Notes under the pieces: generated by a model
Seen by the model: the letters and a program-made list of their open reading frames with translations, nothing else
What the model was told of the DNA's origin: nothing
Databases searched by the model: none
Part shown: piece after piece, positions 3,288 through 24,757 of the stretch
Numbering within the stretch: position 1 is the first letter of the stretch
Layout: the number at the start of each line of letters is the position of its first letter
Program-made: the position numbers and the translations under genes
Assembly: GCF_004022265.1 (NCBI RefSeq)
Contig: NZ_SAVB01000026.1
Coordinates: 1 to 64,000, forward strand
Reading direction: 5' to 3'
Length of the DNA stretch: 64,000 bases
Source: Paenirhodobacter ferrireducens
Lineage (GTDB): Bacteria; Pseudomonadota; Alphaproteobacteria; Rhodobacterales; Rhodobacteraceae

Positions 3288-3311
3288 GTAAGCATCCGGC
3301 GTAGGCCGCGG

Positions 3312-4937: not shown

Positions 4938-4997
4938 GGACGAGACCTACCACGTGGCCCTCTAAAAGCCCATGCAAATAAGGCAGGTTGCACCGAT

Positions 4998-5348
4998 TTA
5001 CCCGGCCTTTGCAGGACGTTGCGTCCAGCGTGGATTGCGCCAGTCGATCCCCTCCAGGAGATAGCCGAGTTGGGCTGTGGAGATCTGCACCGCCTCGCCG
5101 GCACCACTGGTTGGCCAGATGAACTTCCCGGCCTCCAGCCGCTTGGTATAGAGCGACATGCCGACCCCATCGTGCCAGAGCAATTTTACCAGATCGCCCT
5201 TGCGTCCGCGGAAGCAGAAAATCTCGCCGGCGTGCGGGTCGCGCCCGAGCCCCTGCTGCACCGTCAGCGCCAGGGTGTTCATACCGCGCCGCATATCGGT
5301 GACCCCACCTGCAATCCACACGCGCACCCCCGCCGGGAAGGCGATCAT
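4998..5348 (-). CDS. tnpB: IS66 accessory protein TnpB (Orf2)
   Basis: The protein has 116 residues. MIAFPAGVRVWIAGGVTDMRRGMNTLALTV and FCFRGRKGDLVKLLWHDG (given in parts: GRKGDLVKLLWHDG near residue 50) are the conserved core of the IS66 Orf2 family. It is needed together with TnpC for transposition in studied IS66 elements, but its biochemical role is unclear. Its start overlaps the end of tnpA by 4 bp, consistent with translational coupling. Confidence 0.93.
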   Translation of the reverse strand: MIAFPAGVRVWIAGGVTDMRRGMNTLALTVQQGLGRDPHAGEIFCFRGRKGDLVKLLWHDGVGMSLYTKRLEAGKFIWPTSGAGEAVQISTAQLGYLLEGIDWRNPRWTQRPAKAG

Positions 5349-5758
5349 CGGCCCTCCAGGGCCGGAAGCAGCCGCGCCAACACCTCAGGCTCCACCGACG
5401 AGGGGACGAGGAGCCGCCGCCCATTCCTGAACACGATCTCGAGCTGAACATCCCGGGTGTCGCGCGGCGCCTCCTGTGCCGTCACGGGCACTACCGCAGG
5501 TGCCACGGGCGAAACCGCCAGCGGGATGAAAGCGGGCGGCGCATCGACGCCAAGTTCGCCAGCCCGATACTGTCGACGCCATATCGTCAACAGAGAGCGC
5601 GACACACCATGTCGGCGCGCCGTAGCCGAGACCTGACGATCCCCCAGAAAGCTCTCTTCAACGATCCGGATCTTCTCCGCATCATCCCAATGTCGCCGGC
5701 GCGGCACATCCGCGGCAGATAGGACTTCAATCTCGGGTCTGAACTTATGGTCGGCCAT
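5345..5758 (-). CDS. tnpA: IS66 accessory protein TnpA (Orf1)
   Basis: The protein has 137 residues and a helix-turn-helix near the N-terminus (WDDAEKIRIVEESFLGDRQV then ATARRHGVSRSLLTIWRRQY), as in the IS66 Orf1/Tnp_8 type. It is the first gene of the IS66 operon, starting 59 bp inside the right end. It probably binds DNA at the element ends, by analogy with related Orf1 proteins. Confidence 0.93.
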   Translation of the reverse strand: MADHKFRPEIEVLSAADVPRRRHWDDAEKIRIVEESFLGDRQVSATARRHGVSRSLLTIWRRQYRAGELGVDAPPAFIPLAVSPVAPAVVPVTAQEAPRDTRDVQLEIVFRNGRRLLVPSSVEPEVLARLLPALEGR

Positions 5759-5817
5759 AAGGTCGGACTTAGCACCGCCAGAAAAATTCCGTCAGACGGT
5801 CCTCGCCGGAACGTTAC

Positions 5818-6134: not shown

Positions 6135-9100
6135 ATGCACAGTTTTATCAGCAAAAACAATGGTGTACGCGGATGGCTCTCCCGCTTGGGTGCCGATAGT
6201 AATGTGTCGCTTGATCGATTGGCATGGGTCGAAACTGCCTTCAATGCCGCATGGACCGGTCCAACTTCTACTCCGTTTATCACAGACATCCAAACTCGCG
6301 GTGATCTCCTCGACGAGGCGGCACATTTCGCTCATGAGATACCGCTGTGGCGCCTATTCAATTCTGCCCCGACGCTCGCGGTCTGGGCCGTTCTCATCCC
6401 GCTTGCGCGCAACTACGGCATCTCGACCAATGAGGTTTACCGCCATATCAGCCGCTTCGTCGGCGAGAGCTTTGATGAACAGGAGGCCCGCGAGGATCTC
6501 AAGACCCGCTACCGCCGCACCGCCCGGGCTCTCGGCCTGCCGGTATTCGGCAACGAGCCGACAGGCCTCTTTTTCGCACCACTCGGTCCGGCCCATGCCC
6601 ACCACGGTGATCTCGCCCGAGCCTTTGTCGGTGCCGCCCTCCACATTGGCCCGCCAGCAATCGAGGATACGGCTTCCGCACGGCGCTGGCAGAGAAGAGT
6701 TGTGGCTGATCGCTGTGCAGGACTCGCCCGCCTCAAGGCGACCATCGCCTTCGACACCTCCGCCCATGTCGCCCGCCGCTTCGAGGCCTGGCGACAGGGC
6801 GAAAGCCCCGTGGGAGATACCGAAGCCCATCTCTTCGAAGCTTATGATCAGGCGGCACGAAGCCTTGGTCGTTCAAGAGCCGACATCGTCGGCCCGCCGC
6901 GCCTCGTCTGGACCGGAGATCACCTCACCCTCGAAACCGAGACGTCGCGCGAACTACAATCCCTGCGGCTCGGGGCCATCCCGACTCGACTTGCTGGCGG
7001 CAAACGCCTCCAGGTGCCCCCGCCTTGGCGCCCGACCATTCGCTGGACCGCGGGCACCCTCTCCCGGGACATCCCCCTTGCCCCCGCGGAAGGTGAGGTT
7101 CTGGTCTTCGATGCCGACACCGGCGCCATGCTCTCTCGCCTCTCCTCTGAACAGGGGGAAATGGAAATTGCCGCAGAACGGCTCATCGTCCTTTCCGGAG
7201 CCCCTTTCACAAGCCTTTCTTTCGGCGACGCCATCCCCGCAAAGGATGCGTCCTTCAGAATTGCCTGGGTCAATGCGAACGAAACCCTCGCTTTCGAGGG
7301 TCGCTCCGACCTTTCATTCACGCGTCCGGTCGAAGACGCCATTTGGATCGACGCCCCGGTTCTCGGACGCGACGGAAGCAGGGCCCTCTATGCCTGCAAC
7401 GGCGGGCTGCAGGTGCGGATCGACCCGGAGATCGGCGGGCCAACCCGGATCATCCGGACCCGCATCGGCGGACAGGTCCGTTTCCACCAGGTCGATCTCG
7501 GCGCCACCGGCGAACTCCGCATGGCCTTTGCCGACGCCCATCTCGAAGCCCTCGCCGATCCAGCGGAAGTCCTCTTCGAGGTCCTTACGCCCGGGGCGGC
7601 CGGAGACCTCGAAGCGCGGGTCGCCCTGACCACGCGCTGCTGGATATGGCCCGGCATCTCCGCCCCCGACGGTGACCTTGCGGACGTCCCGATCCCTGCC
7701 AATTTTGACCCTGCGCGCAGCGCCGGGCTGCGCGCGATCGATGGGCGCCTTTCGGTCGATCCCGAGGCTGACCAGGAAACCCCGATCCTCGGGCTTTCCG
7801 GTCCTGACAGAGTTCACGAATTTCGCCTTGTCGCCCGTGGCGAGAAGCTCTGGCACTTCCGGGTGGCGCGCGGCGACAGGGTCTACGTCCCGCGCGGGGC
7901 CACGCTGGTCTTCGGTCACGCCAACCGACACGATGCCCTCATCCTGCGCTCGCCGGACCGCGACGCCTCGCTTCTCGTTCTCGGCCGTGAGACCCGGCGT
8001 CCCTTCTATCGACGACAGACCATTGAGATCGGTGCGGCGGATCTCGAAGAGGACACTGAAGACGACCGCATTGCCCTGCGGAGGGCGGACGGGCGCGTCG
8101 ATCTTCTCGCCCGGCTTCGCCGCGCCACCGACCCGGCGGGCCTCGAAATCAGCGAAGCCCCCGACGAGATCCGCCTGCGCTTTACCCCCCGGACAGACTG
8201 CGACGCCCTTCGGGTTCGCATAGAGCCCGTCCGCGGAGCCCTGATCGAGGGGGAATATGCCTTCGGCCGCGCACCCCTCGATCTTCCTTCGCTTCAGGGC
8301 GTTCGCACCACGCGCGATCCCGCGACCAGCCAGGTCGAGGTCATCCTCGATCCTTCGCAGCTGCCTGCGCCGGCGCGCGCCACCTTTCTTCTGCGCGACA
8401 ACGCGGGGGTACTCCTTCCGCTTCGCGATGTCCGCAATGCACCGGTCGCGATCGGGCTTGCCGGAGAGATCAACACGCCGCAGCGAGGCCATCTCCTCGA
8501 TCTTGCCCGCTTTCTCGCCGAACCCCAGCCGGACAGCCTGGGCGGACAAATCGGTCGGGCTCTCTCGCCAGCCTACGAGGCGGCACTGAATCACGTTGGC
8601 AAGTCTCACATGCTCGGATCGATCAAGCCTCTCCTCGCCGTTGTCCGGGAGGATCGGCAGCCACCCCGGCATGACCTCATCGGCGCCGCTCCCTGGATCT
8701 TCGAGGCAAGCCCGATCGCCTTCGGCGACCTCGACACCGACACCGGCCTTGCGCCGATCTCCGACATGGCCGGAGAACCCTCGCCAGTGCCGCCTCCGCG
8801 CGTCGATGGAGATACGCCACTTTCGGACTGGCTCGGGCGCGTCTCGACGGGTGCTGGCATCCCAACCGGGTTCCAGGCCGACAGGCTCCAGCATGCCTTC
8901 CAGGCCCTGCGCTGGCGGCTCAAGGAAACCGATCTCCACGACCTCGTCGGGGAAGAGACGCTTGCGGGAACCGTCAAGCTGATCTGCGGCGCCCATGTTG
9001 AAGGCCTCGAGAAACTTCGCTCCTTCGATCCGGGCGGAGGTGCGGACCCGCTTCCCGCCCGGATCGCCGCGCAGGTCGAGCGCCTTGCCCGCAGTTGCGC

Positions 9101-9269
9101 CGAACGCCGGTCTCACGCCTTCGTCGATGACGTCGTGTTTCGAACCGGCCTACCCCGGCGCGAAGTCGGGCAGGTACTGACCCTCATGCTGAGGGTCGGC
9201 GTCGAGTTCTTCGCCTATTTCCGTGCGCTCTGGGCGCATGCCAGCAAGGATGGATCCCCCTCCGCATGA
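6135..9269 (+). CDS. Large protein of unknown function, first gene of a helicase/ATPase defence-like operon
   Basis: The protein has 1,044 residues from ATG 6135; a TTG at 6048 would add 29 residues coded by AT-rich DNA with a repeat, so I prefer 6135. I do not recognise the family. The N-terminal 260 residues look helical (WLSRLGADSNVSLDRLAWVE, then LAVWAVLIPLARNYG). The middle (about 280-850) looks beta-rich with many short strands, and the last 150 residues look helical again. I see no transmembrane segment, signal peptide, Walker motif or nuclease motif. It overlaps the helicase gene by 4 bp (ATGA), so the two are translationally coupled. Its length and position next to a DUF1998 helicase recall DruH of Druantia III, but I cannot see sequence similarity to it. 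A scaffold or recognition subunit is one guess. Confidence 0.75.
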   Translation: MHSFISKNNGVRGWLSRLGADSNVSLDRLAWVETAFNAAWTGPTSTPFITDIQTRGDLLDEAAHFAHEIPLWRLFNSAPTLAVWAVLIPLARNYGISTNEVYRHISRFVGESFDEQEAREDLKTRYRRTARALGLPVFGNEPTGLFFAPLGPAHAHHGDLARAFVGAALHIGPPAIEDTASARRWQRRVVADRCAGLARLKATIAFDTSAHVARRFEAWRQGESPVGDTEAHLFEAYDQAARSLGRSRADIVGPPRLVWTGDHLTLETETSRELQSLRLGAIPTRLAGGKRLQVPPPWRPTIRWTAGTLSRDIPLAPAEGEVLVFDADTGAMLSRLSSEQGEMEIAAERLIVLSGAPFTSLSFGDAIPAKDASFRIAWVNANETLAFEGRSDLSFTRPVEDAIWIDAPVLGRDGSRALYACNGGLQVRIDPEIGGPTRIIRTRIGGQVRFHQVDLGATGELRMAFADAHLEALADPAEVLFEVLTPGAAGDLEARVALTTRCWIWPGISAPDGDLADVPIPANFDPARSAGLRAIDGRLSVDPEADQETPILGLSGPDRVHEFRLVARGEKLWHFRVARGDRVYVPRGATLVFGHANRHDALILRSPDRDASLLVLGRETRRPFYRRQTIEIGAADLEEDTEDDRIALRRADGRVDLLARLRRATDPAGLEISEAPDEIRLRFTPRTDCDALRVRIEPVRGALIEGEYAFGRAPLDLPSLQGVRTTRDPATSQVEVILDPSQLPAPARATFLLRDNAGVLLPLRDVRNAPVAIGLAGEINTPQRGHLLDLARFLAEPQPDSLGGQIGRALSPAYEAALNHVGKSHMLGSIKPLLAVVREDRQPPRHDLIGAAPWIFEASPIAFGDLDTDTGLAPISDMAGEPSPVPPPRVDGDTPLSDWLGRVSTGAGIPTGFQADRLQHAFQALRWRLKETDLHDLVGEETLAGTVKLICGAHVEGLEKLRSFDPGGGADPLPARIAAQVERLARSCAERRSHAFVDDVVFRTGLPRREVGQVLTLMLRVGVEFFAYFRALWAHASKDGSPSA

Positions 9270-12200
9270 CGACCCTCAATCCCAACGATTTCCGCGAGCA
9301 TCTCAACAACGTCCTTGCGCGCTTTGTCGCGACGTCTTCGCCAATCAACGACATCCGTGCGCCCCGTCTCGCAGAAGAGCTCAGGAACGTCATCGGGCAG
9401 CTCGACTTCGTCAAAGGGCCTTATGTCGAGACCCTTCCCGATTTCGAGAAGGGAAAATCTCTCCGCGGACTCCGGGAAGAAGGCCTTCTCACACCGCATT
9501 GGCAAACCCTCGCCTCGACAGCTCCTGCCGTCTTCGCCCGGCCCCTGCACGCTCACCAGGAAGCGGCAATCCGGCGGCAGGACAACTACCTCGTCGCCAC
9601 CGGAACCGGTTCAGGGAAAACCGAAAGCTTCCTCTACCCCCTGGTCAACGACATCCTGTCCCAGGGGGATCTCGAACGCCCGGGAGTGCGCGCGATCCTC
9701 GTCTACCCCCTGAACGCGCTGGCCAACGACCAACTGGGGCGGATAGCGAAGCTCCTCTTTCACGACCTCGGCGATCCCGGCATCACGCTGGGAAGATACA
9801 CGGGCCAGGTCAAGTCGCGCGCCACGCGGGATGAGGAAATCACGCGCCTTCGATCCTCCCCGAGTTTCATCGAGGCCTTCGGCGAGGATGCCGACGTGCC
9901 CGCGAACTGGCTCCTTTCCCGCGCGGAGATGCGCGAGGCTCCGCCGCACATCCTGATCACCAACTACGCGATGCTCGAGCACATCCTGCTCCTTCCGACC
10001 AATCGGCAACTGCTGGCCGGCGCTGACCTGCGCCGTATCGTGCTCGACGAGATCCACACATATGCCGGCGCCCAGGCGATCGAGGTCTCCTTCCTGCTGC
10101 GCAGGCTCAAGGCCCATCTCGGCATCCCCGACGGGCAGATCCGCTGCACCGGGACCTCGGCCTCGCTCGATCCCCGCCGCAAGTCGGAACTTGCGGATTT
10201 CGCCTCTCGGCTCTTCGGCGAACCCTTCGCCGGAGAGATCTCCGTCATCACCTCGGAACGCAAGATCCATCCCAGCCTGGCCGGCGGCGCCATGCCGAGC
10301 GGCCTCTCTCCCGAACACTGGGCGCGCGCACGAGATCTTGCCGAAGCCGCGCGCGACGCGGTCCAGAACGACACGCCGATGTCGATCGAGGACTGGAATC
10401 TCGAGACCGAATTTCTCGACCTTCCCAGACTGCACCTCGATGACGCCCCCTCTCTCGGCGATGCGCTTATCGAAAGGCTCGCCGGATTCGAGGAAATCCA
10501 CCGCATCGCCCGGCGTCTCGAAGGCGGATCGGTCGCAATCGAAATCCTCGCGCGCGAGGTCTTTCCCGATGCAGGGGAAGCGGCCGTCGCCGCGCTCGTC
10601 GGGCTGATTTCCGTGGGCGTTCTCGCCGTCAGTGCCGACGCAGCGGTCTTTCCGCTTCTTCCTGCCCGCTATCACCTGATCTCGCGGGCGCCGGACCGCA
10701 CCGGGATTTCGCTTGCGGCCGGCGGCGCTGACAATCTCCGCGAAGTCCTGATCGGGGCCGAACGTGACGACGAGGACCGCCCGGTCTACGAGCTCTACGT
10801 CTGCCGCAACTGCGGCGAGCCCTACCTCGAAGCCTGGGACAACGGCATTTCCCTCGACCCGACGCCTGGCGCGGGAGACCGCCATCTCTTGCGGCTTGTG
10901 CCGGGCGGGCTGACGATCGAGGAGGAAGATGACACCGAGATCGCCCTTCCCGGCCAGATGGTCCATCTCGATCCCTCGAACGGGCATCCAATGGAGGAGG
11001 GAACACCCGGCACGGTTGCCCTCGAGGCCGTGCCTCTCGAACAGGATCCCGACGACGGCAAGCGCTACATGCACCGCTGCGTGGCCTGCAATCATCGCTC
11101 CGCGCGATTTAATGAGCCCATCACAACCGTACGTCCCGGCGACGAGGCGATCGCGGCAGTCGCCGCCCAGACCCTCCTCGAATCCATGCCGTCACACGAT
11201 CTCGGCACCACCCCCCCGATGGGCGGACGCAATCTCCTCGTCTTCTCCGATAACCGCCAGGATGCCGCTTTCTTCGCCCCATTCTTCGAGCGCACATCAC
11301 GCGAACAGGCAGTGCGCAGTGCGATTCTTCGGGTCGTCGAGCGCAGCGGGCGCATGGATATCGACAACATCACCGGCGCGATCCTGCGCGAGCTTCAGGC
11401 CGACGGGCTTCGCCTCTACCGTCCCGGCGTCGTTCCCGAGCGCGAGACCGGGGAAAACGAACGTCTCCGCCTCAAGGCTCTCGTCGCCGCCGAGATCACG
11501 GTCTTCGGGCGGGGACGTCTCAGCCTCGAGGGCTTCGGTCTCATCGGGGTGGATTATGACGCCATCGCACGGCCCGTCGAGATGGTCCGGCGCGCTCTTC
11601 CCGACGCCATGAAACCCTACGCCGATACCTACGTCCGCTACCTGCTGAAAATGATCCGCGAGCACCGCGCGATCGCGCAGAAAGAATCCGGCATGATCGA
11701 CCTCGAGGACGAGTCGATCTGGACGCGTATCGCCTCACAACAGAACCGCTGCGTGAGCCGTGAGCGCAATCCCCACACGAACCTTCCGCTCAGCCTCGTG
11801 CCGGCCGCCGGCCGGCAGAACCGCTTCACCGACCTTCTCGAACGCATGGCCCAGGCCTGCGGCACGACGATCGACGAGAATCAGGTCCGCGATGTTCTGA
11901 CCCAATTCTGGAAAGCCATCGAGCACCCGAAATCGATGACCTCGAAACATGGTGTGGGACGCGGCCTGAAACTCGACCGGGGCCTCTTCATTCTTCCCGG
12001 CTCCGAGGTGTCGCTCTACCAATGCCTGTCCTGCGGCACGCGAACCCAGTTCGATACTGCCGGCGTCTGCCAGTCCATGAGGTGCAATGGAAAGCTCCAC
12101 GAGGTTCCACGGGACGAACGCCAGACCCTCGATGCCCGCAACCACTACGTGGCCCGCTACCGCGAGCATCCGCAAATGGGCATTGCGCGCGAACATACCG

Positions 12201-14206
12201 CGGCGATCTCCAGCGAGATCAGGTCCGAGATCGAGGAGAAATTCAAGGCAGGCGAAGTCAACCTCCTGTCCTGCACGACCACCATGGAAATGGGGGTCGA
12301 CCTCGGTGATCTCGAGTCGGTCCTGTGCAAGAACGTCCCGCCCTCGATCGCCAACTACCAGCAACGCGCGGGACGCGCCGGACGCCGCGCCCAGGTCGCG
12401 CCAATCGTACTCACCACCGCGCGTTCCGGGCGCTATGACCGGGCAGTCTTCGAGAAGTTCTCCGAATATCTCGCGGCCCAGCCGATCATCCCCTACCTCA
12501 GCCTCGACAACGCGGGCTTTTTCCGTCGTCACCAGCTCTCAATGCTGCTCGCGCGCTTCCTCGAACACCGCCTCGCGGGATACACCCGGACGGGATCTCC
12601 CCGCATGCGTGACGTCTTCGCCGATGCCCTGACAGAGGAGGCCAGAAAGACGTTCGACACCTCCTTCGCCGACTGGATCGAGCAGGCGGAGCCGGACCTT
12701 GCGGTCGCCGCAGACCTGGCTACCCGCTTGCCTCCTTCCCTTCGATCGATCGCGCTCGACGCGGCAGGTCTGAAGGCCGCCCTGAGCGAGCGGATCTCGC
12801 AATTCGCGGACATGGCCTGGGGTCGTTTCGGACTGATGCAGGAAGCAATCGACGACCTCGAGGCACGCCGAAACGATCTCCAAAAGACGGAAGCCGACAA
12901 GTTCATCAAGATCGACCGGTCGCTGGGCGCCCTGCGCACCCAACAGAAGCTCTACATGAACCAATTCCTGATCGACCAGCTATCGCGGCGAGCGATCATC
13001 CCCACCTACTCGTTTCCGGTTCACTCGGTCTCGCTCGAGGTTCTCAATACGGCCGGTCAGACCGCCGACACCGCCGTGCTCGAACTCGACCGCGACGGCT
13101 CGATCGGAATTTCCGAATACGCGCCGAGCGCCGAGATCGTCGCCGGAGGCCGAGTCTGGGTAAGCGCCGGGATTTCCAAGCGATCGAAATTCACCGGAGA
13201 CGACGCCTTCATCGAACGATCCCAATACCGGGTCTGCGGTGCCTGCCGTTCTCCCCAGATCACCCTCCAGGGCGTGGAGCCAAAGAAGCATTGCCTGCAA
13301 TGCGGCGCCGTGTTCCACAAGACCAATGCGACCCGGGCCTTCATCCGGCCCCATGGTTTCGTCACTTCCGTCGCCGATGGTCAGGGGCGCGACCCGGGCG
13401 CGACCCGGATCCGTCCGACAATCTCCGATGAGGCCCTGCTTCTCACGGAGGCTCCACGCTCCAAATACACCGCGACCGACCTGCCCGGCATCCTGACCTT
13501 CCACGCGCCGGGCTCGAACCGGCCCGAGGATGAACTCGGGCGCATCATCACCGTCAATCGCGGACGCCATGGCGGCGGCTTCGCCTGGTGCCCGAGCTGC
13601 GAGCACGCCGTGCCCGCGCATGGACATGGTCCCGACCTCGCCTGGCAACAGCCGACGCTTCTCGCTCCCCATGTCAACCCACGCAGCGGACAGCCTTGCC
13701 GTTTCGATCCCACCAAACAAGCTTGGCCGATCGATCTCGCCCATGTCTTCGAAACCGATGTCCGCGGTCTTCTCTTCGAGAGCCTCCCCGCAACCCCATC
13801 GGGGGACGCCATCCCCTCTGACAACTCCCTCGAACGCACGCTGCAGGAGGCCTTGCGGCTCGGCGCCGCCGAACTCCTGGAAACCAATCCGCGTGACCTT
13901 CGCGCGCTCGTTCAGAAACTCGACGGCCTCATCGTTGTCGTCATCTACGATTCCGTCTCCGGCGGGGCGGGCTACGCCACGCGGTTGACAAACGAGACCG
14001 GGTATCTCGCGCGAGATCTCCTTCTCTCCGCCCGCAAGATCCTCAACTGTCCCAACCCCGATTGCATCACCAGCTGCACGCGCTGCCTCAACGACTATTC
14101 GAACCAGCGCCACTGGCACATGTTCAATCGCCGCCCAGCCCAGGCATGGATCGAGACGATCCTGCTCGATGCCGGCGTCAAAATTGACCCGCAATGGGAC
14201 ATCTGA
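9266..14206 (+). CDS. YprA/MrfA-type superfamily 2 helicase with zinc clusters and C-terminal DUF1998 domain
   Basis: The protein has 1,646 residues. Helicase motifs: I ATGTGSGKTE (111-120), Ia VYPLNALANDQ (147-157), II DEIH (261-264), III TGTSAS (295-300), V MEMGVDL (1007-1013) and VI QQRAGRAGRR (1032-1041). Between the RecA-like lobes and after them lie several Cys clusters: C513/C516 with C605/C608; C920/C923/C935/C940; C1324/C1327 with C1343/C1346; and C1442/C1445. The C-terminus carries the DUF1998 signature, IYDSVSGGAGYA followed by C1595-x4-C1600-x3-C1604-x2-C1607. This architecture is found in YprA/MrfA repair helicases and in DISARM, Dpd and Druantia proteins. At 1,646 residues it is far longer than YprA (about 750) and in the range of DruE and DpdJ. 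It probably translocates on DNA using ATP. It overlaps both neighbours, so the three genes form one operon. Confidence 0.9.
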   Translation: MTTLNPNDFREHLNNVLARFVATSSPINDIRAPRLAEELRNVIGQLDFVKGPYVETLPDFEKGKSLRGLREEGLLTPHWQTLASTAPAVFARPLHAHQEAAIRRQDNYLVATGTGSGKTESFLYPLVNDILSQGDLERPGVRAILVYPLNALANDQLGRIAKLLFHDLGDPGITLGRYTGQVKSRATRDEEITRLRSSPSFIEAFGEDADVPANWLLSRAEMREAPPHILITNYAMLEHILLLPTNRQLLAGADLRRIVLDEIHTYAGAQAIEVSFLLRRLKAHLGIPDGQIRCTGTSASLDPRRKSELADFASRLFGEPFAGEISVITSERKIHPSLAGGAMPSGLSPEHWARARDLAEAARDAVQNDTPMSIEDWNLETEFLDLPRLHLDDAPSLGDALIERLAGFEEIHRIARRLEGGSVAIEILAREVFPDAGEAAVAALVGLISVGVLAVSADAAVFPLLPARYHLISRAPDRTGISLAAGGADNLREVLIGAERDDEDRPVYELYVCRNCGEPYLEAWDNGISLDPTPGAGDRHLLRLVPGGLTIEEEDDTEIALPGQMVHLDPSNGHPMEEGTPGTVALEAVPLEQDPDDGKRYMHRCVACNHRSARFNEPITTVRPGDEAIAAVAAQTLLESMPSHDLGTTPPMGGRNLLVFSDNRQDAAFFAPFFERTSREQAVRSAILRVVERSGRMDIDNITGAILRELQADGLRLYRPGVVPERETGENERLRLKALVAAEITVFGRGRLSLEGFGLIGVDYDAIARPVEMVRRALPDAMKPYADTYVRYLLKMIREHRAIAQKESGMIDLEDESIWTRIASQQNRCVSRERNPHTNLPLSLVPAAGRQNRFTDLLERMAQACGTTIDENQVRDVLTQFWKAIEHPKSMTSKHGVGRGLKLDRGLFILPGSEVSLYQCLSCGTRTQFDTAGVCQSMRCNGKLHEVPRDERQTLDARNHYVARYREHPQMGIAREHTAAISSEIRSEIEEKFKAGEVNLLSCTTTMEMGVDLGDLESVLCKNVPPSIANYQQRAGRAGRRAQVAPIVLTTARSGRYDRAVFEKFSEYLAAQPIIPYLSLDNAGFFRRHQLSMLLARFLEHRLAGYTRTGSPRMRDVFADALTEEARKTFDTSFADWIEQAEPDLAVAADLATRLPPSLRSIALDAAGLKAALSERISQFADMAWGRFGLMQEAIDDLEARRNDLQKTEADKFIKIDRSLGALRTQQKLYMNQFLIDQLSRRAIIPTYSFPVHSVSLEVLNTAGQTADTAVLELDRDGSIGISEYAPSAEIVAGGRVWVSAGISKRSKFTGDDAFIERSQYRVCGACRSPQITLQGVEPKKHCLQCGAVFHKTNATRAFIRPHGFVTSVADGQGRDPGATRIRPTISDEALLLTEAPRSKYTATDLPGILTFHAPGSNRPEDELGRIITVNRGRHGGGFAWCPSCEHAVPAHGHGPDLAWQQPTLLAPHVNPRSGQPCRFDPTKQAWPIDLAHVFETDVRGLLFESLPATPSGDAIPSDNSLERTLQEALRLGAAELLETNPRDLRALVQKLDGLIVVVIYDSVSGGAGYATRLTNETGYLARDLLLSARKILNCPNPDCITSCTRCLNDYSNQRHWHMFNRRPAQAWIETILLDAGVKIDPQWDI

Positions 14207-17200
14207 AACACATCGAAAGACAGACAGGCGCCTTCATGCTCAAGCACAAACCCCTCGATCCAACTGTCCGTTCGACGATGACGGAGTTCTCCATCTCCAG
14301 GAAGCCCCCTGGAAAGACGGATTTCCCGAAGTCCCATCCCGCTTGCATCGTCATGGCCGGATGGACGACCGAGGACTGGGAAAAGCTCGAAAGCTTCGGT
14401 GACTTTCCCCTTCTGGAAATCTGCCCTGAGGCTCCAGCCTACTTTGCGCAGGCAGGCCATTTCTCGGCGCGCGACCTCCGCAATATCGTCTCGACCTTCG
14501 GCCTCGACGTAGATCATCACGATGCGGAGGCGATCTATCACATCATCCTCGAGCGCGCCGAAGGGGCTCCCTGGGTTCTTCCAATACTCGAGACGATCAT
14601 CGCACCGCAAAGGGTCAAGAACGGCGGTTTCAAGAATAAGAACAAGGTTTCCCAAGTCCTGCAGAAATTTCCTCTTTTGAAACTGCGTCTCAAGGCAAAC
14701 CCACAACTCCATGAGCGGACAGGCGAACTTCTTCTTCCGCCGGTCGCCCCCGATATCGCCGTGGCAGCCTTCTGCGAATACGCGATCGAGGCCTACTACC
14801 AGAAGACCGAAAACAAGAGCCTCTTCGAAGAGCACTACATCGAGGCGAGGAAGATCCTATCGGATATCAGCCCTGCCGACATCATCATGGTCGAGCTTGG
14901 CCAGATCGATGACATCGAGGATTGGGACGAGCACGCATCCCTGATCTCATCCCTCATGTCCGACTACCCTGACGCCGTCTCCGAGCACCTCCATCTCCAC
15001 CTCATCGCCACCCTGAAGCATTTCAGCCAGCACATCACGCAGACGAGCAGCGTCGACGATCTTGAAACCATCATGGTACTCTCCGGGGCCGCGGCAAAAC
15101 AGGCAAAGCTGCTGCAGACCCCGCGCAAGGAAACCGTGATCGAACAGGTCCGGAAACTCGGAATCGAGGTGGATCTCAACCTCGTCACCGACGAAGCGGT
15201 CGCCACGCTTTCTGCCGCGCTGGATGCGGGTCTCGTCATGCGGGTGCGCATCCAAGACCTCGCCATTGCCGACCTCGAGGAAAAGATCGCGGAAACCAAG
15301 GAGGCGATCGCCGCGGCGAATGCCGAGGAAGATTACGCCCTTCTCACCCGCCTCGCGCCGCAGGCGGGGGAGGAGAAGGAGGCCCTGCGCGTCGCGCGCG
15401 AGGTTCAGGAGGCCATTCTTCTCTGCCTTGGCGAGTTGGTCTCTGGCACGGCGGAAGATCAGGATGCTGCGCTGGCCGAGCTGCGCGCCTTCATCGAGAA
15501 GAACGACCCGGACACAGAAGACTACGCCGAGGCCGATGCTTCCCTGGCATCCGAACTCTTCACCCTGCCCGACGCCGAAGAAGACCCCGTCGAAGACCAC
15601 ACCGCCGCGGACGATGTCGACCCCGAAGACGCGGTCGAGGACAACTCGCCCATCGACGCCACGAGCGTCTCCTCCGACCTCGTGAATAGCGATGATCCCG
15701 AAACCGCTGGGCACGATCAGGCGGAGGGGAACACATCTGAGCCGACTGTCACCGATGCATACGAGGAAGACACCGTCGAGGCGCAAAACCCTCACGCAGG
15801 CATCGATGAGAACGAAGGCGCGGCGAAGGAGATCGAACCGCAGGACGTCGATCCCCAGCCTGACGCCGATTCCGTCGCTATCGAGAATCCCCTCGAAGAC
15901 GCACCGATTCAGTCTGCCATTGAGACGGCGGAAGATAGATATTCTGAACCCGAGGCGCTTCCCGATCTCATCCCCCGGATTGAGCCTGAAACCTATGTGG
16001 CCGAGATCGACATCGACACCACCCCGCCGGTCCCAGTCTCGGTGCTGGCAAGCCTGATCCATCGCAATCTCCTCGGGATCGCCGCTGATGCGGCGAAGAG
16101 CTTCGAACACGAAGGCAAGCACTGGCCGATCCGGGCCGTTGTCCTCGAGGCCGCCGCCGGCAGCCGCACGCCCCATCGCAAATACGGGGCTGACACCCAG
16201 CGGTTCCTGGAACTCGCCACCCGTGGGGCGGGTGATGCCGCATCCGATGTCGGATCCATCCTGCTCCTCGGAGCATTGATCCGGCCCGCGCTACTCGAGA
16301 CTTCCCTCTCCAGCCTGCGCAATATTCTCCACGAGCTTTGCCGCGGCAGCCTCGGGCAGCACCTGCAGCAGGCCACCGATGCGATCTCGGAACTCGATTA
16401 CGACTTCCCGCCCGACGCCGACGAGCTGGCGCGCCTCTCCGGTGGCCAACGCACGCCCCAGAAACAGAGGCTTGCGGCCCAGCTCGGGAAATGGGCCGAC
16501 ACGGTGTCGGCCAAGACCTCGCGCTGGCCCTTCGCCACCGCCATCATGCACTACATCGCCTCGCCCGCCGGCCCCATCGGCGCGGCTCTCTCCGCGATCA
16601 GTAACGGCAACAAGAATGCGGCCAGCCTCGCCCGCGAGGCGATCGACGGTCTCTCTTCCGCCTCGAAAATCGAGACGCTGGCCGCGGAATACGCGAGCGA
16701 GGCCGGGCGCAACACGGCCCGCCTGCACCCCAAGGGGATCGAGTATCTCGAGCGCCAGCTCGAGGAGCCCCTCGGCCTTCTCGACAGCTGGATCGACGCA
16801 ACCACGCGCGAGGGCAGCCAGGGGCAGAAATCCGAGGCGCGTCTGCGCACCATCGTCGGCAACCTCATCTCCCGCCTCGAGAAAGCCGAAACCGGGCTGC
16901 GGGCGGAGGCGACAAGCGCCCCCGACACACTTGCTGGAGCAACTGCCCACTGGGTTGCGGATCAGGTCCGCGAAGTCCTGCAGGCACTGCGCGGAGAAGA
17001 TACCGGCGCCTTCGCGACGCTCGATGAAGCGCTCGCCGCGGAACGCGATCTTCTGCCCGCCTCGGTGCGTGACACGCTCGATATCCCCGAGGGCCGCTTC
17101 GACGCCTTCAGCGATCTTCTCAACAAAACCGCAATTCCCGATCCCAAGGGCGCCCTGGCCCAGGCGCGCGAGGAAGGCGCCTTCGATACCGCATCCCGTC

Positions 17201-20200
17201 TCGCCAGCCGTTTCGGCATCGACGTCCAGGACGGCCTGACCCATGACATGAAGGTCTTCGCGAAAACCTGGAGCGCGGAGATCAACACCCGCGTCCGCCG
17301 CCTCAAGACCCTCTCGAAGGTCGACTACAAGCACCAGGAAGAGATCTCCAGGCGCCTTGCACTCTGCGAGATCCTTCTGGGGCGCCTCACGGCGGTCGAC
17401 AACGGATCCGAGGTCCACGACCTTGCCGAACTACCGGCGGCTGCGGCCGAGATCGACGCCACATGCGCCCAGATCGAGGCCAAGATCCGCGCTGACCAGG
17501 TCCAGCGCATCGACCAATACCGCAACGACCGCAACTCGGAAGAAGCCGACACCCTGCTCGGGGCTCTCGACGGCATCACGGTCGAGGCGGCCGAAGACCG
17601 CATCGCGCAACTTCGCGATGGTCGCTCCGCTGCGATCTTCCAGACCGAACTTGGCGGGCTCGTGTCCGACTTCCTGCCCGACTTCCTCGCCTATGCGAGC
17701 TCTGCGCAATGGCCCACGACCAGCGAAGCGCTCGAGCGCACCGTCGCCGCGGCGGGGCCTCTGCATATCGAGGAAGATCGTCGCGGCGCCGGCCTTGATC
17801 TCATCCATCTCTACCGCGCCATCGGCACCTCGATGCAATCGAAGCAGCCCGATCTGCCGAAGGTTAAAGTGCTCTTCGAGGAGATCGGCTACGACAGCGT
17901 GAAGATCCACAACCCCCGGCCGGTCGGCCGTTCCGGACTGTGGCAGGCCCAGCTTGGCGGCCGGATCCAACCCCTCCGCTCCGGCGACTGGTTCCTGCCG
18001 CCGGTCTTCGGCTCGCAGGCCGCAAACGGGGCCGGCGCTGATCTCGTGCTGATCGGACGCGATACCCTTCCCGAGAACCTCGTGAAGACTCTCTCTTCGG
18101 ACATGCCAGCGATCCTTCTTTTCGCCGGCGTCATCGATGCCCAGCGGCGGCGTGAACTCGCCGAACATCTGCGCGACAACGCGATCCCCGCACTCCTCAT
18201 CGACGAGGCCCTCATTACCTTCGCGGCAACCCGCCGTCAGGCCAGGGCCCGGACCATCTTCGAATGCGGATTGCCCTATGGCCGCGTCGAGCCCTACACA
18301 ACGGACGCGGGCCAGCTGCCGCCAGAGATGTTCTTCGGGCGCAGCGAAGAGATCCGCCTCATCATGTCGAAAACGGCTGACGGCTGCCTCGTCTACGGCG
18401 GGCGTCAGCTCGGCAAGTCCGCCCTTCTGGGCCATATCGCCCGTACTGAGCATGCCCCCGAGAAGGACCGGATCGTCGTGACGCGCGAGGTCCGACCGCT
18501 TGGGAAATCCGAGAAGCCTTCGGAGATCTGGTCCCATCTCGCCTCGATGCTTTCACCCGAGATCGTGCGTCCCGCCAGCCGCAACGCCGAGGATGTATCG
18601 CGTGACATCAAGGCCTGGCTCATGCACCATCGACAGGGTCACATCGTCGCCATGTTCGACGAAGCCGACAACTTCATGGATGCTGATACCCGCGACGACT
18701 ACCCCGAGCTCGCCCGCCTCAAGAAACTGATGGAAGAGAGCGGGCGCGCGTTCAAGGTCGTCTTCGCCGGCCTTCACAACGTCCAGCGGATGTCTCACCA
18801 GCCGAACTCTCCGCTCGCCCATCTCGGCCTGCCCATCTGCATCGGTCCGCTGAACCGGACCGAGGACGACAAGCGCGCCGCGCATGATCTCGTCGTCTCG
18901 CCGATGCGCGCAGCGGGCTTCCGTTTCGAGAACCACGAGGCGATCGAGGAAATTCTGGCCTGGGCCAACTACTACCCCTCTCTGATCCAGGAATACATGA
19001 AGGGGCTTCTCTCCACTCTCCACGGCAGCGGTTCGGGCAAGCCCTATCGACTGCCCGAGGGCGATCCCCTCTGGCCGATCTCGAGCGACACCCTCTTTGA
19101 TCACCGCGGCTTTGGCGAGATCGAGAACCGGATCCGCTTCAAGTTCCACCTCACGCTGAATCTCGATCCACGTTACGCGCTCGTGGCCTATACGCTCGGC
19201 CGGCTCAACGTCGAGGGCCAGGAAGACAAAGCCCGGGTCACCGGCTTCGATCCACGCGAGCTTCTCGACGAGGCGAGCACCTTCTGGCCGCGCAGCTCCG
19301 AGATCCCGGCCCTTGCCGCCTTCGAAGCCTTGCTCGAGGAACTCTTCGACCTTGGCGTTCTCGGCCGCGTTCCGATCCCCGGAACCAAGCGCTTCCGCTA
19401 CCTGCTGGGCTCGCGCCAGGTCGCGACCATGCTCGGCTCCGAGGACGACATCTACCATGCGCTCGCCGAAATCGAGGAAAAGGATCCGGAGGTAGCCTAT
19501 GACCGCTCCGTCCATCGGCGGCGCTACAACCTGAACACCTCCGGCAACCAGGGCGAGTTTTCCTACTGCCCGCTCACCGACCTCCAGATCGAGCGCATCG
19601 TCCAGCCCCAGGATGCTACCGGACAGATCGTCTGCGGCCTTGAGGCCCTCGGGCTTTCCAAGGTCGGCTCGTCGCTCAAGCGCATTGCCGAATCCGGCAA
19701 CCTACCCGGAGCCCCCGAGCAGGGGATCAACGTGGAGATCGTGCGCAGCAAGCGCGAATTGCGCGCACCCGTCGAACGCAAGGGCGCCTCGCAAAACCCG
19801 GTGATCCTCGTCTTCACGCCGGAAGATCGCAAGGAGGCGCATGATGCGCTGACCTGGCTCGAGCATCAGCCGCGGGTTCTCAATAAGCAGGTTCGTCCGC
19901 TTCTCCTTCTCGATGCCGCCAACACGGAGATGCGCGACATCGCCACGCGGCGGCCCGAACAGAGCCAGTTTCTCACCGCCTGGGGGGCGGAGATGATCCG
20001 CATCCACCTGAGCCATATCGAAAAGGTGGAGCTCGATACCAAGCCGATGCGGTCCGCCATTCTTGCGGCGGCCGGCGGCATCCCTTCCGAAACCATCAAG
20101 CTGATCTCCGCGATGCGGGTGGCGGAAGACCCGCTGGAAGTCGCTCGGGAATGGAAGGTGTCTTTCCGTATGCCGGCAGGACTTCTCAATGGCCCCCTGG

Positions 20201-20403
20201 GCAAAGCCCTTTCCATTCTCGACATGGGGGATGACGAAGACGCTGACACTTTCAACGAGATCCTGCGCGATCACGCAGGAGCCGATCTCGTCGACATCGG
20301 GCCGGACCTTGTCGCAACCGGTCTTGCGACCTGGTTCAAGAAGAAAGCTGGACGCATCCGCCGCTCCGCACTTGGCGATCTGCTCGCCAGGGAGACGGAG
20401 TGA
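14194..20403 (+). CDS. Giant multidomain protein with ORC/STAND-like P-loop ATPase, third gene of the operon
   Basis: The protein has 2,069 residues and its start overlaps the helicase gene by 13 bp. Residues 1-350 are mostly helical. A short coiled coil (about 350-405) is followed by a very acidic, probably disordered linker (about 450-610). A long helical region (about 620-1350) follows, then an AAA/STAND-type ATPase: FFGRSEEI (1380-1386), Walker A GGRQLGKS (1402-1409) and Walker B MFDEAD with D1489/E1490. After it come winged-helix-like sequence and a C-terminal domain (about 1750-2069). The FGRxxE entry and GGRQxGKS loop are typical of Orc1/Cdc6-like and STAND NTPases that act as sensors or DNA loaders. 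The stop TGA (20401-20403) is the tip of an IS3 element, so the natural C-terminus may be cut short. The family is not recognised. Confidence 0.8.
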   Translation: MGHLKHIERQTGAFMLKHKPLDPTVRSTMTEFSISRKPPGKTDFPKSHPACIVMAGWTTEDWEKLESFGDFPLLEICPEAPAYFAQAGHFSARDLRNIVSTFGLDVDHHDAEAIYHIILERAEGAPWVLPILETIIAPQRVKNGGFKNKNKVSQVLQKFPLLKLRLKANPQLHERTGELLLPPVAPDIAVAAFCEYAIEAYYQKTENKSLFEEHYIEARKILSDISPADIIMVELGQIDDIEDWDEHASLISSLMSDYPDAVSEHLHLHLIATLKHFSQHITQTSSVDDLETIMVLSGAAAKQAKLLQTPRKETVIEQVRKLGIEVDLNLVTDEAVATLSAALDAGLVMRVRIQDLAIADLEEKIAETKEAIAAANAEEDYALLTRLAPQAGEEKEALRVAREVQEAILLCLGELVSGTAEDQDAALAELRAFIEKNDPDTEDYAEADASLASELFTLPDAEEDPVEDHTAADDVDPEDAVEDNSPIDATSVSSDLVNSDDPETAGHDQAEGNTSEPTVTDAYEEDTVEAQNPHAGIDENEGAAKEIEPQDVDPQPDADSVAIENPLEDAPIQSAIETAEDRYSEPEALPDLIPRIEPETYVAEIDIDTTPPVPVSVLASLIHRNLLGIAADAAKSFEHEGKHWPIRAVVLEAAAGSRTPHRKYGADTQRFLELATRGAGDAASDVGSILLLGALIRPALLETSLSSLRNILHELCRGSLGQHLQQATDAISELDYDFPPDADELARLSGGQRTPQKQRLAAQLGKWADTVSAKTSRWPFATAIMHYIASPAGPIGAALSAISNGNKNAASLAREAIDGLSSASKIETLAAEYASEAGRNTARLHPKGIEYLERQLEEPLGLLDSWIDATTREGSQGQKSEARLRTIVGNLISRLEKAETGLRAEATSAPDTLAGATAHWVADQVREVLQALRGEDTGAFATLDEALAAERDLLPASVRDTLDIPEGRFDAFSDLLNKTAIPDPKGALAQAREEGAFDTASRLASRFGIDVQDGLTHDMKVFAKTWSAEINTRVRRLKTLSKVDYKHQEEISRRLALCEILLGRLTAVDNGSEVHDLAELPAAAAEIDATCAQIEAKIRADQVQRIDQYRNDRNSEEADTLLGALDGITVEAAEDRIAQLRDGRSAAIFQTELGGLVSDFLPDFLAYASSAQWPTTSEALERTVAAAGPLHIEEDRRGAGLDLIHLYRAIGTSMQSKQPDLPKVKVLFEEIGYDSVKIHNPRPVGRSGLWQAQLGGRIQPLRSGDWFLPPVFGSQAANGAGADLVLIGRDTLPENLVKTLSSDMPAILLFAGVIDAQRRRELAEHLRDNAIPALLIDEALITFAATRRQARARTIFECGLPYGRVEPYTTDAGQLPPEMFFGRSEEIRLIMSKTADGCLVYGGRQLGKSALLGHIARTEHAPEKDRIVVTREVRPLGKSEKPSEIWSHLASMLSPEIVRPASRNAEDVSRDIKAWLMHHRQGHIVAMFDEADNFMDADTRDDYPELARLKKLMEESGRAFKVVFAGLHNVQRMSHQPNSPLAHLGLPICIGPLNRTEDDKRAAHDLVVSPMRAAGFRFENHEAIEEILAWANYYPSLIQEYMKGLLSTLHGSGSGKPYRLPEGDPLWPISSDTLFDHRGFGEIENRIRFKFHLTLNLDPRYALVAYTLGRLNVEGQEDKARVTGFDPRELLDEASTFWPRSSEIPALAAFEALLEELFDLGVLGRVPIPGTKRFRYLLGSRQVATMLGSEDDIYHALAEIEEKDPEVAYDRSVHRRRYNLNTSGNQGEFSYCPLTDLQIERIVQPQDATGQIVCGLEALGLSKVGSSLKRIAESGNLPGAPEQGINVEIVRSKRELRAPVERKGASQNPVILVFTPEDRKEAHDALTWLEHQPRVLNKQVRPLLLLDAANTEMRDIATRRPEQSQFLTAWGAEMIRIHLSHIEKVELDTKPMRSAILAAAGGIPSETIKLISAMRVAEDPLEVAREWKVSFRMPAGLLNGPLGKALSILDMGDDEDADTFNEILRDHAGADLVDIGPDLVATGLATWFKKKAGRIRRSALGDLLARETE

Positions 20404-20466
20404 CCTGCCCCCCGGAAGTTCCCTCGGCGTGATGTAGAGTCTGCCCAACCTGAAGGAGCAGACGAG

Positions 20467-20744
20467 ATGAGGAAAAGCCGTTTCACCGAGGCGCAGATTA
20501 TCGGGATGATCAAAGAGCAGGGTCAACGCACTGCGTTGACGGTTTGCCGACGGCCGAGCTCTGCCGGAAGCATGGTTTAAGCCCTGCCACGTTTTACAAG
20601 CTGAAGGCCAAGTATGGCGGGATGGACCTTTCAGACGCCAATCGGCTCAAGCAGCTCGAGGCCGAGAACACGAAGCTGAAGCGCCTTGTGGCCGATGTCA
20701 TGCTGGACAATGTCGTGCTGAAGGATCTGCTGGGAAAGCCCTAA
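20467..20744 (+). pseudogene. IS3 OrfA, frameshifted by a 20-bp palindromic insert
   Basis: The frame starts MRKSRFTEAQIIGMIKEQ at 20467 and resumes two bases out of phase as [21 protein letters not shown] at 20544. Removing bases 20521-20540 restores a single 252-bp-plus frame that matches the usual OrfA helix-turn-helix and leucine zipper (residues [14 protein letters not shown]). OrfA binds the IS ends. The gene overlaps no other and lies 8 bp before orfB. The insert is a palindrome described separately. Confidence 0.8.
20522..20540. repeat. 19-bp perfect palindrome inserted in IS3 orfA
   Basis: The arms GTCAACGCA (20522-20530) and TGCGTTGAC (20532-20540) surround a single C. The inserted block is 20 bp, counting one flanking G, and causes the orfA frameshift. 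Confidence 0.75.
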
Positions 20745-20752
20745 CGACGCCG

Positions 20753-21634
20753 ATGCAACGGCGGGACGCGGTGCTGCGGGCGATGAAGGATCATCCGATC
20801 TCTCAGCGTCGGGCCTGCGTCCTGATCGGTGTCGATCCGAAGACGGTGCGGCGAAAGAGGCCGCCCGATAACCCGGAAATCCGTGAGGCGATGCACGAGA
20901 TCGTCGAGAAGCGCCGTCGCTTCGGCTATCGGCGCGTCGGCATCCTGCTCGAACGCAAGGGCATGATCATGAACGAAAAGAAGCTCTACCGGATTTACCG
21001 GGAAGAAGGCCTGTCGGTGCGCCGCAGGCGTGGCCGCAAACGAGCGCGGGGCAGCCGAACACCAATGCCGGTGCCGTTGCGGCCGAACCAGCGGTGGTCG
21101 TTGGACTTTCTGTCAGACACGTTCGGGGCCTGCCGAAAATTCCGCATCCTGGCCGTGAACGACGACTGCTGCCGCGAAAACCTCGCCCTGATTGCTGACA
21201 CCAGCATCTCGGGAGCCCGGGTCGCGCGGGAATTGGACGCCCTGGTCAGGATCTATGGAAAACCCGCCTGCATAGTTTCTGACAATGGCACCGAGTTCAC
21301 CAGCAAGGCGATATTGAAATGGGCCAACGCCAACAAGGTCGAATGGCACTACATCGACCCCGGCAAGCCGCAGCAGAACGGCTTCATCGAGAGCTTCAAC
21401 GGCAGCCTACGCGACGAATGCCTCAACGAGGAGATCTTCGACAGCCTCGCCGATGCCCGCCGCACCCTGGCCCTATGGCGCTACGACTACAACCACATCA
21501 GGCCGCATTCCTCGCTGGGCAATCAAACCCCGGCAGAAGCGCGCCGGGCGCTTGAGCAATCTGAGGGCTCCGCGCCCGGCGCGCTTGCCCAACCCGAAAT
21601 CGACCACTATCAACCCCAAGGACTCTCGTCATGA
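20753..21634 (+). CDS. IS3-family transposase OrfB (DDE)
   Basis: The frame encodes 293 residues. A HTH_21-type N-terminal part ([17 protein letters not shown]) is followed by the rve integrase core with the DDE residues in [17 protein letters not shown] and [11 protein letters not shown]. In IS3 elements OrfB is normally made as an OrfAB fusion by -1 frameshifting. Here orfB lies in the -1 frame relative to the end of orfA, as expected. With orfA broken upstream, a fusion made from this copy would lack a proper N-terminus. Confidence 0.92.
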
Positions 21635-21660
21635 CTGAGGGACCAGCAGGGGGCAGGTCA

Positions 21661-22010: not shown

Positions 22011-22210
22011 CCTGAGCAGATTCCGCTGGGTCGATACAGGCGACCGGTTCGGGCGGGCACACAGCGCTCGAAACCGAGCGCCAGAAGATCGAGCTCCTCG
22101 ACGAAGAGGTCGACGACACGGACCAGGTGATCCTCGCAGATCCAGTCCTCGAGACGATCAGGGAAAAGCGTGACCTGGTCTCGGTCGATGCCGTCGATGA
22201 AACCTGCCAT
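22007..22210 (-). pseudogene. N-terminal fragment of an IS1182-type transposase
   Basis: The start at 22210 gives MAGFIDGIDRDQVTLFPDRL then EDWICEDHLVRVVDLFVEEL, the usual opening of IS1182-family transposases (about 450-500 residues). The match ends after ARTGR near 22040, where unrelated sequence next to the IS3 fragment takes over. Upstream, bases 22211-22275 look like the IS1182 terminal region (GTGTGGAAACGC on the minus strand). About 57 original codons remain. Confidence 0.75.
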
Positions 22211-22289
22211 CCTAGTCTCCCGTTGCCTCGCGGAAGCTTATCACGGGACAGCGTTTCCACACAGCCTCGGTCCTGCCCCTAATAGCCCA

Positions 22290-22790: not shown

Positions 22791-22791
22791 C

Positions 22792-24752: not shown

Positions 24753-24757
24753 TGTAT

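Follow-up and report, generated by a model that had tools for sequence, protein, structure and literature searches.

The 64,000 nt stretch of DNA analysed here (the window, to which all unprefixed positions refer) is taken from the forward strand of contig NZ_SAVB01000026.1 of Paenirhodobacter ferrireducens (assembly GCF_004022265.1), and its start coincides with the contig edge. At positions 6135–20403 it carries, on the plus strand, an operon of three genes with overlapping frames, referred to below as P1, P2 and P3. P1 (6135–9269, plus strand) encodes a protein of 1,044 amino acids from an ATG at 6135, or of 1,073 amino acids from an alternative TTG start at 6048, and stands in the position that DruH occupies in Druantia systems; P2 (9266–14206, plus strand; 1,646 amino acids) encodes a DruE-like SF2 helicase of the YprA/MrfA type with an MZB (DUF1998) domain; and P3 (14194–20403, plus strand; 2,069 amino acids) encodes a predicted giant STAND-type ATPase. 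The overlaps are 4 nt between P1 and P2 and 13 nt between P2 and P3. Open reading frame (ORF) calling agrees with a preliminary description of the same DNA, made from its letters alone, which had reported three overlapping genes of 1,044, 1,646 and 2,069 residues at this position. We find that the operon is a conserved and horizontally spread variant of Druantia III-like type, with a putative defence function, and that it is distinct from Druantia III proper.

Sequence comparison shows the middle protein, P2, to be homologous to DruE along the greater part of its length. Its PADLOC matches were DruE1 (E 4.2e-164, with the best stretch at residues 216–1630) and DruE3 (1.1e-161), the scores for DrmA and DpdJ lying far below those for DruE, and Pfam assigned the DEAD, Helicase_C and MZB families, each above its curated cut-off. 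The two libraries thus bear out the earlier assignment of P2 as a YprA/DUF1998 SF2 helicase, and the proposal that the operon is a candidate system outside known families has to be given up for a DruE homologue of this extent. Three helicase motif patterns were present in all 22 relatives, and the MZB cysteine pattern in 16 of the 22. The alignment of P2 ends where the DruEs of long relatives continue into an extra C-terminal domain of ~330 residues. A search of the P. ferrireducens genome itself returned one DruE plus one weak helicase match.

Judged from its structure model, P3 is a STAND/ORC-type P-loop ATPase with Walker A and Walker B motifs. The AlphaFold model covers residues 1100–2069, the N-terminal half lying outside it, with a predicted local distance difference test score (pLDDT) of 84.6; it was matched by VIA-align to the archaeal ATPase 2qen (Z 18.3, root-mean-square deviation (rmsd) 4.4 over 319 residues), to 2fna_A (Z 16.5), to plant resistosomes (Z about 15), to CED-4 (4m9s_A; Z 14.9, rmsd 5.0 over 303), to ORC2 (1w5t_A; Z 14.8, rmsd 5.7 over 346) and to Avs3 (8dgc_A; Z 11.3, rmsd 4.8 over 286). 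The predicted ATPase, with helical and winged-helix-like parts, occupies residues ~1365–1765 and is followed in the model by an alpha/beta and helical C-terminal region, while an acidic linker at ~440–610 can be seen in the translation. Full-length P3 gave only weak matches to AAA_16/ATPase_2 in Pfam and only JetC3 (E 0.085) in PADLOC; the isolated ATPase region matched Pfam AAA_22 above the cut-off (E 5.3e-8) and nSTAND1 below it. The earlier reading of the third protein as an acidic linker joined to an ORC/STAND-like ATPase is upheld, the linker by the translation and the ATPase by the AAA_22 match and the fold match to 2qen. The Walker A region (GGRQLGKSALL, P3 residues 1402–1412) lies at 18397–18429 on the plus strand; GGRQLGKS is kept in 22 of 22 full-length P3 proteins including that of the window, D1489/E1490 are invariant, and the densest run of invariant residues in P3 is the ATPase region. 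The pieces of P3 outside the ATPase gave nothing above the Pfam cut-off, no nuclease or toxin family was found among five P3 pieces in Pfam at E up to 5, and a P3 profile run against PDB sequences returned chance-level NFAT matches only.

By its place and its modelled layout P1 looks like a counterpart of DruH and is a candidate member of that family. The AlphaFold model of P1 (pLDDT 87.6) consists of helices at ~26–243, a run of beta sandwiches at ~250–780, at least one of them weakly Ig-like, and helices again at ~784–1040; DruH is described in a 2026 preprint as having helical ends, Ig-like domains at 257–748 and a likely role as phage sensor (PMC13192584). P1 matched no family in PADLOC or NCBIfam and only a chance-level one in Pfam (E 0.46). 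The DruH models of PADLOC, which score a true DruH at E = 0, matched none of 13 P1-family proteins (E up to 1 or up to 0.1), and neither PADLOC nor hhalign detected a direct sequence homology between P1 and DruH. P1 is homologous over nearly its whole length to distant proteins encoded upstream of DruE (hhalign E 2.7e-82, 1,039 columns), and for these distant relatives, too, no relation to seven DruHs was detected (hhalign E 0.22). A fold search of BFVD gave low-TM-score matches to fibronectin-type and virion proteins. In the pair of DruH + DruE suggested in the preliminary description, P1 takes the place of DruH but is not DruH by sequence.

We surveyed the co-occurrence of the three genes at two scales. 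Among 292 genomes of the order to which P. ferrireducens belongs, P1 was found in 7 and P3 in 4, one of the latter as a 148-residue fragment, and three, the source genome included, carry the complete operon with its genes arranged as in the window. The two relatives are 57–62% identical to the window in P1, 78–81% in P2 and 54–62% in P3; the other four P1 matches (22–26% identity) precede DruEs of ~1,980 amino acids that are 43–46% identical to P2. The 148-residue fragment resembles the P3 C-terminus and stands alone in another genome of the family (G161:C1:3666467-3666934). An anchored scan of genome contigs with DruE only, using a DruE alignment, yielded 75 loci from the best 80 of 97 confirmed stretches. 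Of these, 70 have a P1-family gene (profile E ≤ 1e-3) in front of DruE; among the other five, DruE lies at a contig edge in four and only a DruE fragment is kept in the fifth (L094). A P3 gene stands directly behind DruE in 22 of the 75 loci, at full length in 21 and in the last (L038) with a frame that ends near the contig edge; in these 22 loci and in the window it overlaps DruE or begins within 75 nt of it, and P1 is present in all 22. Recurrence of P1, P2 and P3 in the same order at 22 of 75 DruE loci is more than chance, and the concern that these genes might rarely be found together elsewhere is not borne out, though the operon is sparse (three of 292 genomes).

The presence of P3 coincides with the absence of the extra C-terminal domain of DruE. 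This domain was not found by tblastn in any P3 locus, so that P3 and the domain occur together in 0 loci. Among the 53 loci in which DruE falls clearly into one length class and is followed by 2 kb of sequence or more, 22 have a short DruE followed by P3, two a short DruE without P3 (L056 and L064), none a long DruE with P3 and 29 a long DruE without P3 (Fisher P 6e-13, an overstated value since related loci are not independent); left out of this count were 12 loci with a fragmentary or odd-length DruE and ten with less than 2 kb behind it, nine of them long and one short (L050). In a quick tree of the helicase core, assessed by the Shimodaira–Hasegawa-like approximate likelihood ratio test (SH-aLRT) only and with flagged long branches, a single branch (24 rows, SH-aLRT 100), nested among domain-bearing DruEs, unites the 22 P3 loci with the window and L056. 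P3 gain and domain loss therefore coincide once in the lineage, and the ATPase cannot be regarded as simply added, as had been suggested earlier. Today the combination is found across Rhodobacterales and in three Rhizobiaceae. Across 21 loci the pairwise identities of P1, DruE and P3 correlate with r 0.976–0.981 (none of 2,000 permutations was as high), with median identities of 46% for P1 and P3 and 70% for DruE, and DruE identities among the P3-followed short DruEs extend down to 54%.

Several loci are of interest beside these counts. The DruE of L056 is followed by unrelated ORFs, among them one that resembles a Tn3 transposase. L064 and L050 carry short DruEs (~1,646 amino acids) without P3 and fall among the domain-bearing DruEs, the contig of L050 ending 445 bp further on; in these two the C-terminal domain can be absent without a swap for P3. 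The ORFs behind the DruE of L064 resemble a toxin–antitoxin pair. A copy in a Chloroflexi metagenome-assembled genome (L041) is nearly identical to a Salipiger operon and probably reflects contamination or recent transfer.

The ~330-residue domain of the long relatives is ZorD-like and probably a nuclease. The ZorD1 model, whose label names an Mrr-like nuclease, was matched by all ten C-terminal domains sampled (best E 6.4e-16), the match of the first spanning model positions 1051–1203 of 1208; the NsnC model was matched by three of the ten, and the MITD1 PLD-like domain weakly (E 0.09). DNA cutting by this domain is suggested by the label of the ZorD model. Compared by hhalign with the C-terminus of canonical DruE, represented by only three sequences, the domain showed no detectable relation (E 0.39).

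The operon lies in a mobile island. Left of it are a gene for a 263-residue protein of a Tn7-like element (501–1292, minus strand; no Pfam family), which is possibly TnsA-like, and an AAA ATPase gene (1566–2663, minus strand; Pfam AAA 5e-9), which is probably TnsC-like, a name given by position only. An IS66-family insertion sequence (IS) lies close to the operon on the left (3312–5758, minus strand; DDE_Tnp_IS66 3e-85 at 3312–4937, the accessory ORFs being assigned by position) and an IS3-type transposase gene (rve) on the right (20753–21634, plus strand; rve_3 6e-32); further to the right follow a TniQ-family target-selection gene (24566–26632, plus strand; TniQ 1e-17) and, at the right island border, a tRNA-Arg (TCT) gene found by ARAGORN (26773–26849, minus strand). 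Rhodovulum visakhapatnamense (L032) carries the same operon, 98.6% identical in DNA over 14.6 kb, with the same left genes (the 263-residue protein 89% and the AAA ATPase 95% identical) and with a 91% identical TniQ homologue directly behind P3. Its homologue of the 263-residue protein adjoins an ORF of 765 codons that in the window is cut by the left edge, and the window stretches 3289–5816 and 20401–24660, which hold the IS copies, have no counterpart there. Because L032 has TniQ behind P3 and the same left genes without the IS stretches, it supports the earlier proposal that the operon is cargo of a Tn7-like, IS-rich island beside a tRNA gene, to which the TniQ, IS66, IS3-type and tRNA-Arg assignments also conform. 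The neighbourhood of the P3 loci in general is mobile and variable and contains defence genes. Among 95 neighbouring ORFs of the 22 loci, obtained with a simple longest-ORF filter that may have admitted some false ones, and with 25 of 31 PADLOC and 25 of 62 Pfam families listed, there were single matches to SAVED-HNH CBASS, PD-Lambda-5, type II methyltransferase and OLD models, AbiJ and NotI domains, Tn3 and plasmid RepC once each, two TniB, two WYL and three phage integrases. Instead of the housekeeping contexts that the preliminary description had named as a refuting outcome, mobile and defence genes are seen nearby.

Relatives of P3 beyond this clade were sought with a P3 profile. At class level 3 of 385 genomes were positive (the source genome, one strong match without DruE and one weak match) and at phylum level 6 of 349 (the source genome, a C-terminal piece on a 5.9 kb contig and four weak matches to the ATPase only); from these low counts P3 relatives are rare. 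Giant ATPases resembling P3 were met on 27 plasmid records, and three of these records hold Sinorhizobium medicae copies of the operon's P3. One S. medicae plasmid copy (L010; NZ_CP140890.1, 13953–21795) is decayed, with P1 in three pieces and a C-terminal piece of P3 split by IS copies; no DruE match was found among its ORFs, and TIR and SIR2 genes lie nearby.

Druantia III-type genes accompany a P3-type ATPase in three separate settings, and this is not the rule for the distant relatives. In Methylocystis the genes for a true DruH (PADLOC E 0) and DruE come after a P3-like ATPase gene, with one small gene between. In the viral collection, where five contigs carry P3-like ATPases, two of them strong matches, a 74 kb IMG/VR contig (L133/L144) has a P3-like ATPase (E 2e-188) behind a canonical type III DruH–DruE pair (PADLOC DruH3 8.8e-58, DruE3 E 0), separated by an ORF of 185 codons, the DruE frame containing one in-frame TAG. 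Other partners also occur. In Bradyrhizobium L113 (5143–16098) one protein joins the ATPase to preceding pPIWI-RE MID/RNaseH domains, and its gene lies between one for pPIWI_RE_Z on the upstream side and one for AAA_33 on the downstream side; domains were tested in L113 alone, and corresponding fusions in Azospirillum and Microvirga are recognised by size, annotation and ATPase match only. L113, and also L012 and L108, may represent an extended pPIWI-RE system; profiles found no DruE in L012 or L113. In Brasilonema a P3-like ATPase precedes an SNF2-PLD helicase. Nine records from several phyla encode, directly downstream of the P3-like ATPase, a related partner protein of ~330–550 residues (by BLAST; L133 12811–13809, L131 3230–4270, L129 15977–17587, L011 12721–13875, L013 12550–13683, L012 12568–14145, L111 14268–15857, L113 14449–16098 and L134 12412–13680). 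A profile of eight of these partners finds the ninth (E 2.5e-26) and matched none of 396 ORFs of the 22 P3 loci, L056 and the window, some of whose contigs end soon behind P3. On a Rhodobacter sp. CZR27 plasmid (L116, 1–9881), genes annotated as DUF3883, DUF1156 and DUF499 lie directly upstream of, and co-directional with, DruH–DruE, a possible paired defence array.

The mechanism of Druantia is only now being worked out. We consider it somewhat better than an even chance (roughly 0.55) that the operon is an anti-phage system akin to Druantia III in which the tasks are divided differently, P3 replacing the C-terminal domain of DruE as the output. P1 would sense or dock an infection cue, and the DruE core would load on exposed single-stranded phage DNA and translocate, as reported for the family. 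In the relatives the C-terminal domain of DruE would then be the output; here P3 would supply it, being held closed like other STAND proteins until a P1–DruE–DNA state triggers its ATP-driven assembly on the helicase. Oligomerisation of P3 would lead to a destructive higher-order state that stops the phage, comparable to the one that canonical Druantia III owes to its C-terminal domain. The preprint on the canonical system reports that DruE loads on 3′-tailed DNA and forms higher-order assemblies with the help of its C-terminal domain, and that an active PLD domain of DruE is needed for defence (PMC13192584). In favour of the proposal are the DruE homology of P2, the coupling of P3 with a domain-less DruE in one branch, the matched divergence of the three proteins, the ZorD match of the domain in the relatives, the STAND fold and invariant Walker motifs of P3, the DruH-like layout of the P1 model, the P3-like ATPases beside canonical DruH–DruE pairs, and the neighbouring mobile and defence genes. 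Gene content and order, the coupling of P3 with the missing domain, the conserved motifs and the mobility are observed, whereas a defence function, a complex of the proteins, the oligomerisation of P3 and the way in which the phage is stopped are inferences.

Several points weigh against a system of this kind. The P1 family has no detectable sequence relation to the seven DruHs (hhalign E 0.37), and in a fold search of PDB none of 983 aligned chains reached Z ≥ 8, the best match being weak (Z 6.6), with Ig-like and other sandwiches among the matches listed; the DruH structure 9tud was not among the matches listed, and a DruH-like fold of P1 is still possible. As the C-terminal domain of the relatives is unrelated by sequence to that of canonical DruE, its supposed role is borrowed by analogy. 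Because the mutual exclusion of P3 and the domain is the property of a single clade, the loci counted for it lack independence. The distant P3-like ATPases are mostly found without DruE, which profiles detected in 1 of 12 plasmid loci (Methylocystis) and 0 of 3 genome loci, L108 and L010 lying outside this hidden Markov model comparison. Defence itself is suggested by family and context. Finally, a Mycolicibacterium DruH–DruE pair with a nuclease-less DruE still defends, according to its description (PMC13316683), so that a missing domain does not of itself call for a substitute.

The main rival to P3 as an assembling output is that P3 hides a nuclease or toxin, in its N-terminal half or in its C-terminal alpha/beta region, and is a plain replacement in trans of the lost effector, with the ATPase acting only as a regulator. 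The close match between P3 presence and domain absence speaks for such a replacement, as do the ~1,100 N-terminal residues outside the model, in which nothing rose above the cut-off and which also weigh against our preferred assignment; we nevertheless regard it as rather unlikely, as the Pfam search of the five P3 pieces returned no nuclease or toxin family and the densest invariant run coincides with the ATPase region. It is improbable that P3 is instead a self-sufficient, Avs-like STAND sensor sharing an operon with an independent, co-transcribed defence. The structural match to Avs3 (Z 11.3) and the scarcity of DruE beside distant P3-like ATPases fit such a sensor, set against which P1 and DruE immediately precede P3 in all three genomes of the order that have it at full length, P3 coincides with the loss of the DruE domain, and the divergence of the proteins is matched. 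Still less probable is that two genes already make up a complete system of Druantia III-like type and that P3 hitchhikes beside them, for which the functional Mycolicibacterium pair (PMC13316683, as described) offers a precedent, as do the retention of P1 and DruE without P3 in L056 and the 1,646-residue DruE lacking both domain and P3 in L064 of the domain-bearing clade; P3 nonetheless follows 22 of the 24 short DruEs with at least 2 kb downstream, in overlapping or closely spaced genes and over DruE identities down to 54%. A role in MrfAB-like DNA repair, brought to mind by repair enzymes in the helicase family (PMC12458937), is very improbable given best PADLOC matches to DruE models (with no head-to-head MrfA comparison behind them), the sparseness of full-length P3 (3 of 292 genomes of the order) and the Tn7-like, IS, integrase, plasmid and defence-gene neighbours.

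A clade that combines a domain-less DruE with a STAND ATPase separates DNA recognition from output, which makes each role accessible to deletion. Should P3 prove to be the output, it would link Druantia-type helicases to NLR-like switch ATPases, the first such link we know of, and would suggest that a cutter built into an immune system can be traded for a separate partner driven by ATP. In that case the P3 family fused to pPIWI-RE or beside an SNF2-PLD helicase would point to a module shared by several poorly characterised systems. More tentatively, and with the odds somewhat against it, the giant STAND ATPases may act as an exchangeable module, for output or for assembly, in unrelated machines that sense phage DNA, namely the DruE clade, canonical DruH–DruE, pPIWI-RE fusions and SNF2-PLD; helicase- or PIWI-based DNA recognition would then feed an NLR-like ATP switch, which is not described for Druantia in the literature searched. 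The helicase branch, often without a nuclease, has already been published (PMC12458937); in the Druantia literature searched, which takes in parts of the text and the legends of that article, there is no description of a giant ATPase partner or of an either-or relation between P3 and the domain.

ARMADA, DISARM and Dpd share with the operon a YprA-family helicase at the centre and were rejected, as the three proteins include neither a PglX-like methyltransferase nor a BrxHII/RapA helicase, and neither a separate DrmB nor a Dpd partner; PADLOC, Pfam and NCBIfam likewise found no PLD nuclease, DpdA or deazapurine gene among them. The same three libraries leave P1 without a convincing match and full-length P3 with weak ones, so that the three proteins do not together fall into a catalogued system, and the preliminary description is not refuted on this count. 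The PADLOC library presumably holds models of DruF and DruL, and it gave no match for P1 and only JetC3 (E 0.085) for P3. Druantia type IV, which consists of DruF and DruL beside DruE (PMC8565338), is accordingly a poor description of the operon. The pPIWI-RE islands of rhizobia and Azospirillum have in common with it the P3-like ATPase region, there placed behind pPIWI-RE MID/RNaseH domains in one protein, and differ in being PIWI-based, with no DruE found in L012 and L113. Druantia III proper was excluded by the lack of a DruH recognisable by sequence, of the C-terminal domain and of a two-gene operon: P1 is unrelated to DruH by sequence, DruE lacks its C-terminal domain and a third gene, P3, is present. 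Common to both are a DruE-type YprA helicase directly behind the gene for a protein of ~1,050–1,150 amino acids, residence in mobile islands and, as far as the P1 model can be compared with the published account of DruH (PMC13192584), helical ends around a beta-sandwich middle. The Druantia III-like or III-B branch of Bell et al. (2025; PMC12458937) is similar in that its YprA helicases mostly lack a nuclease domain; no giant ATPase partner is named in the parts of its text and the legends searched, and the comparison is by description rather than by tree. The DruH–DruE pair of Mycolicibacterium smegmatis (PMC13316683), of two genes as described, is likened to P1 and P2 by description, its DruE being 1,667 amino acids long without a nuclease domain and its upstream partner 1,132 amino acids. 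The preliminary description offered two readings, and the one that sees a pair of Druantia III-like genes with an ATPase added to them is preferred here to that of a separate YprA-helicase array.

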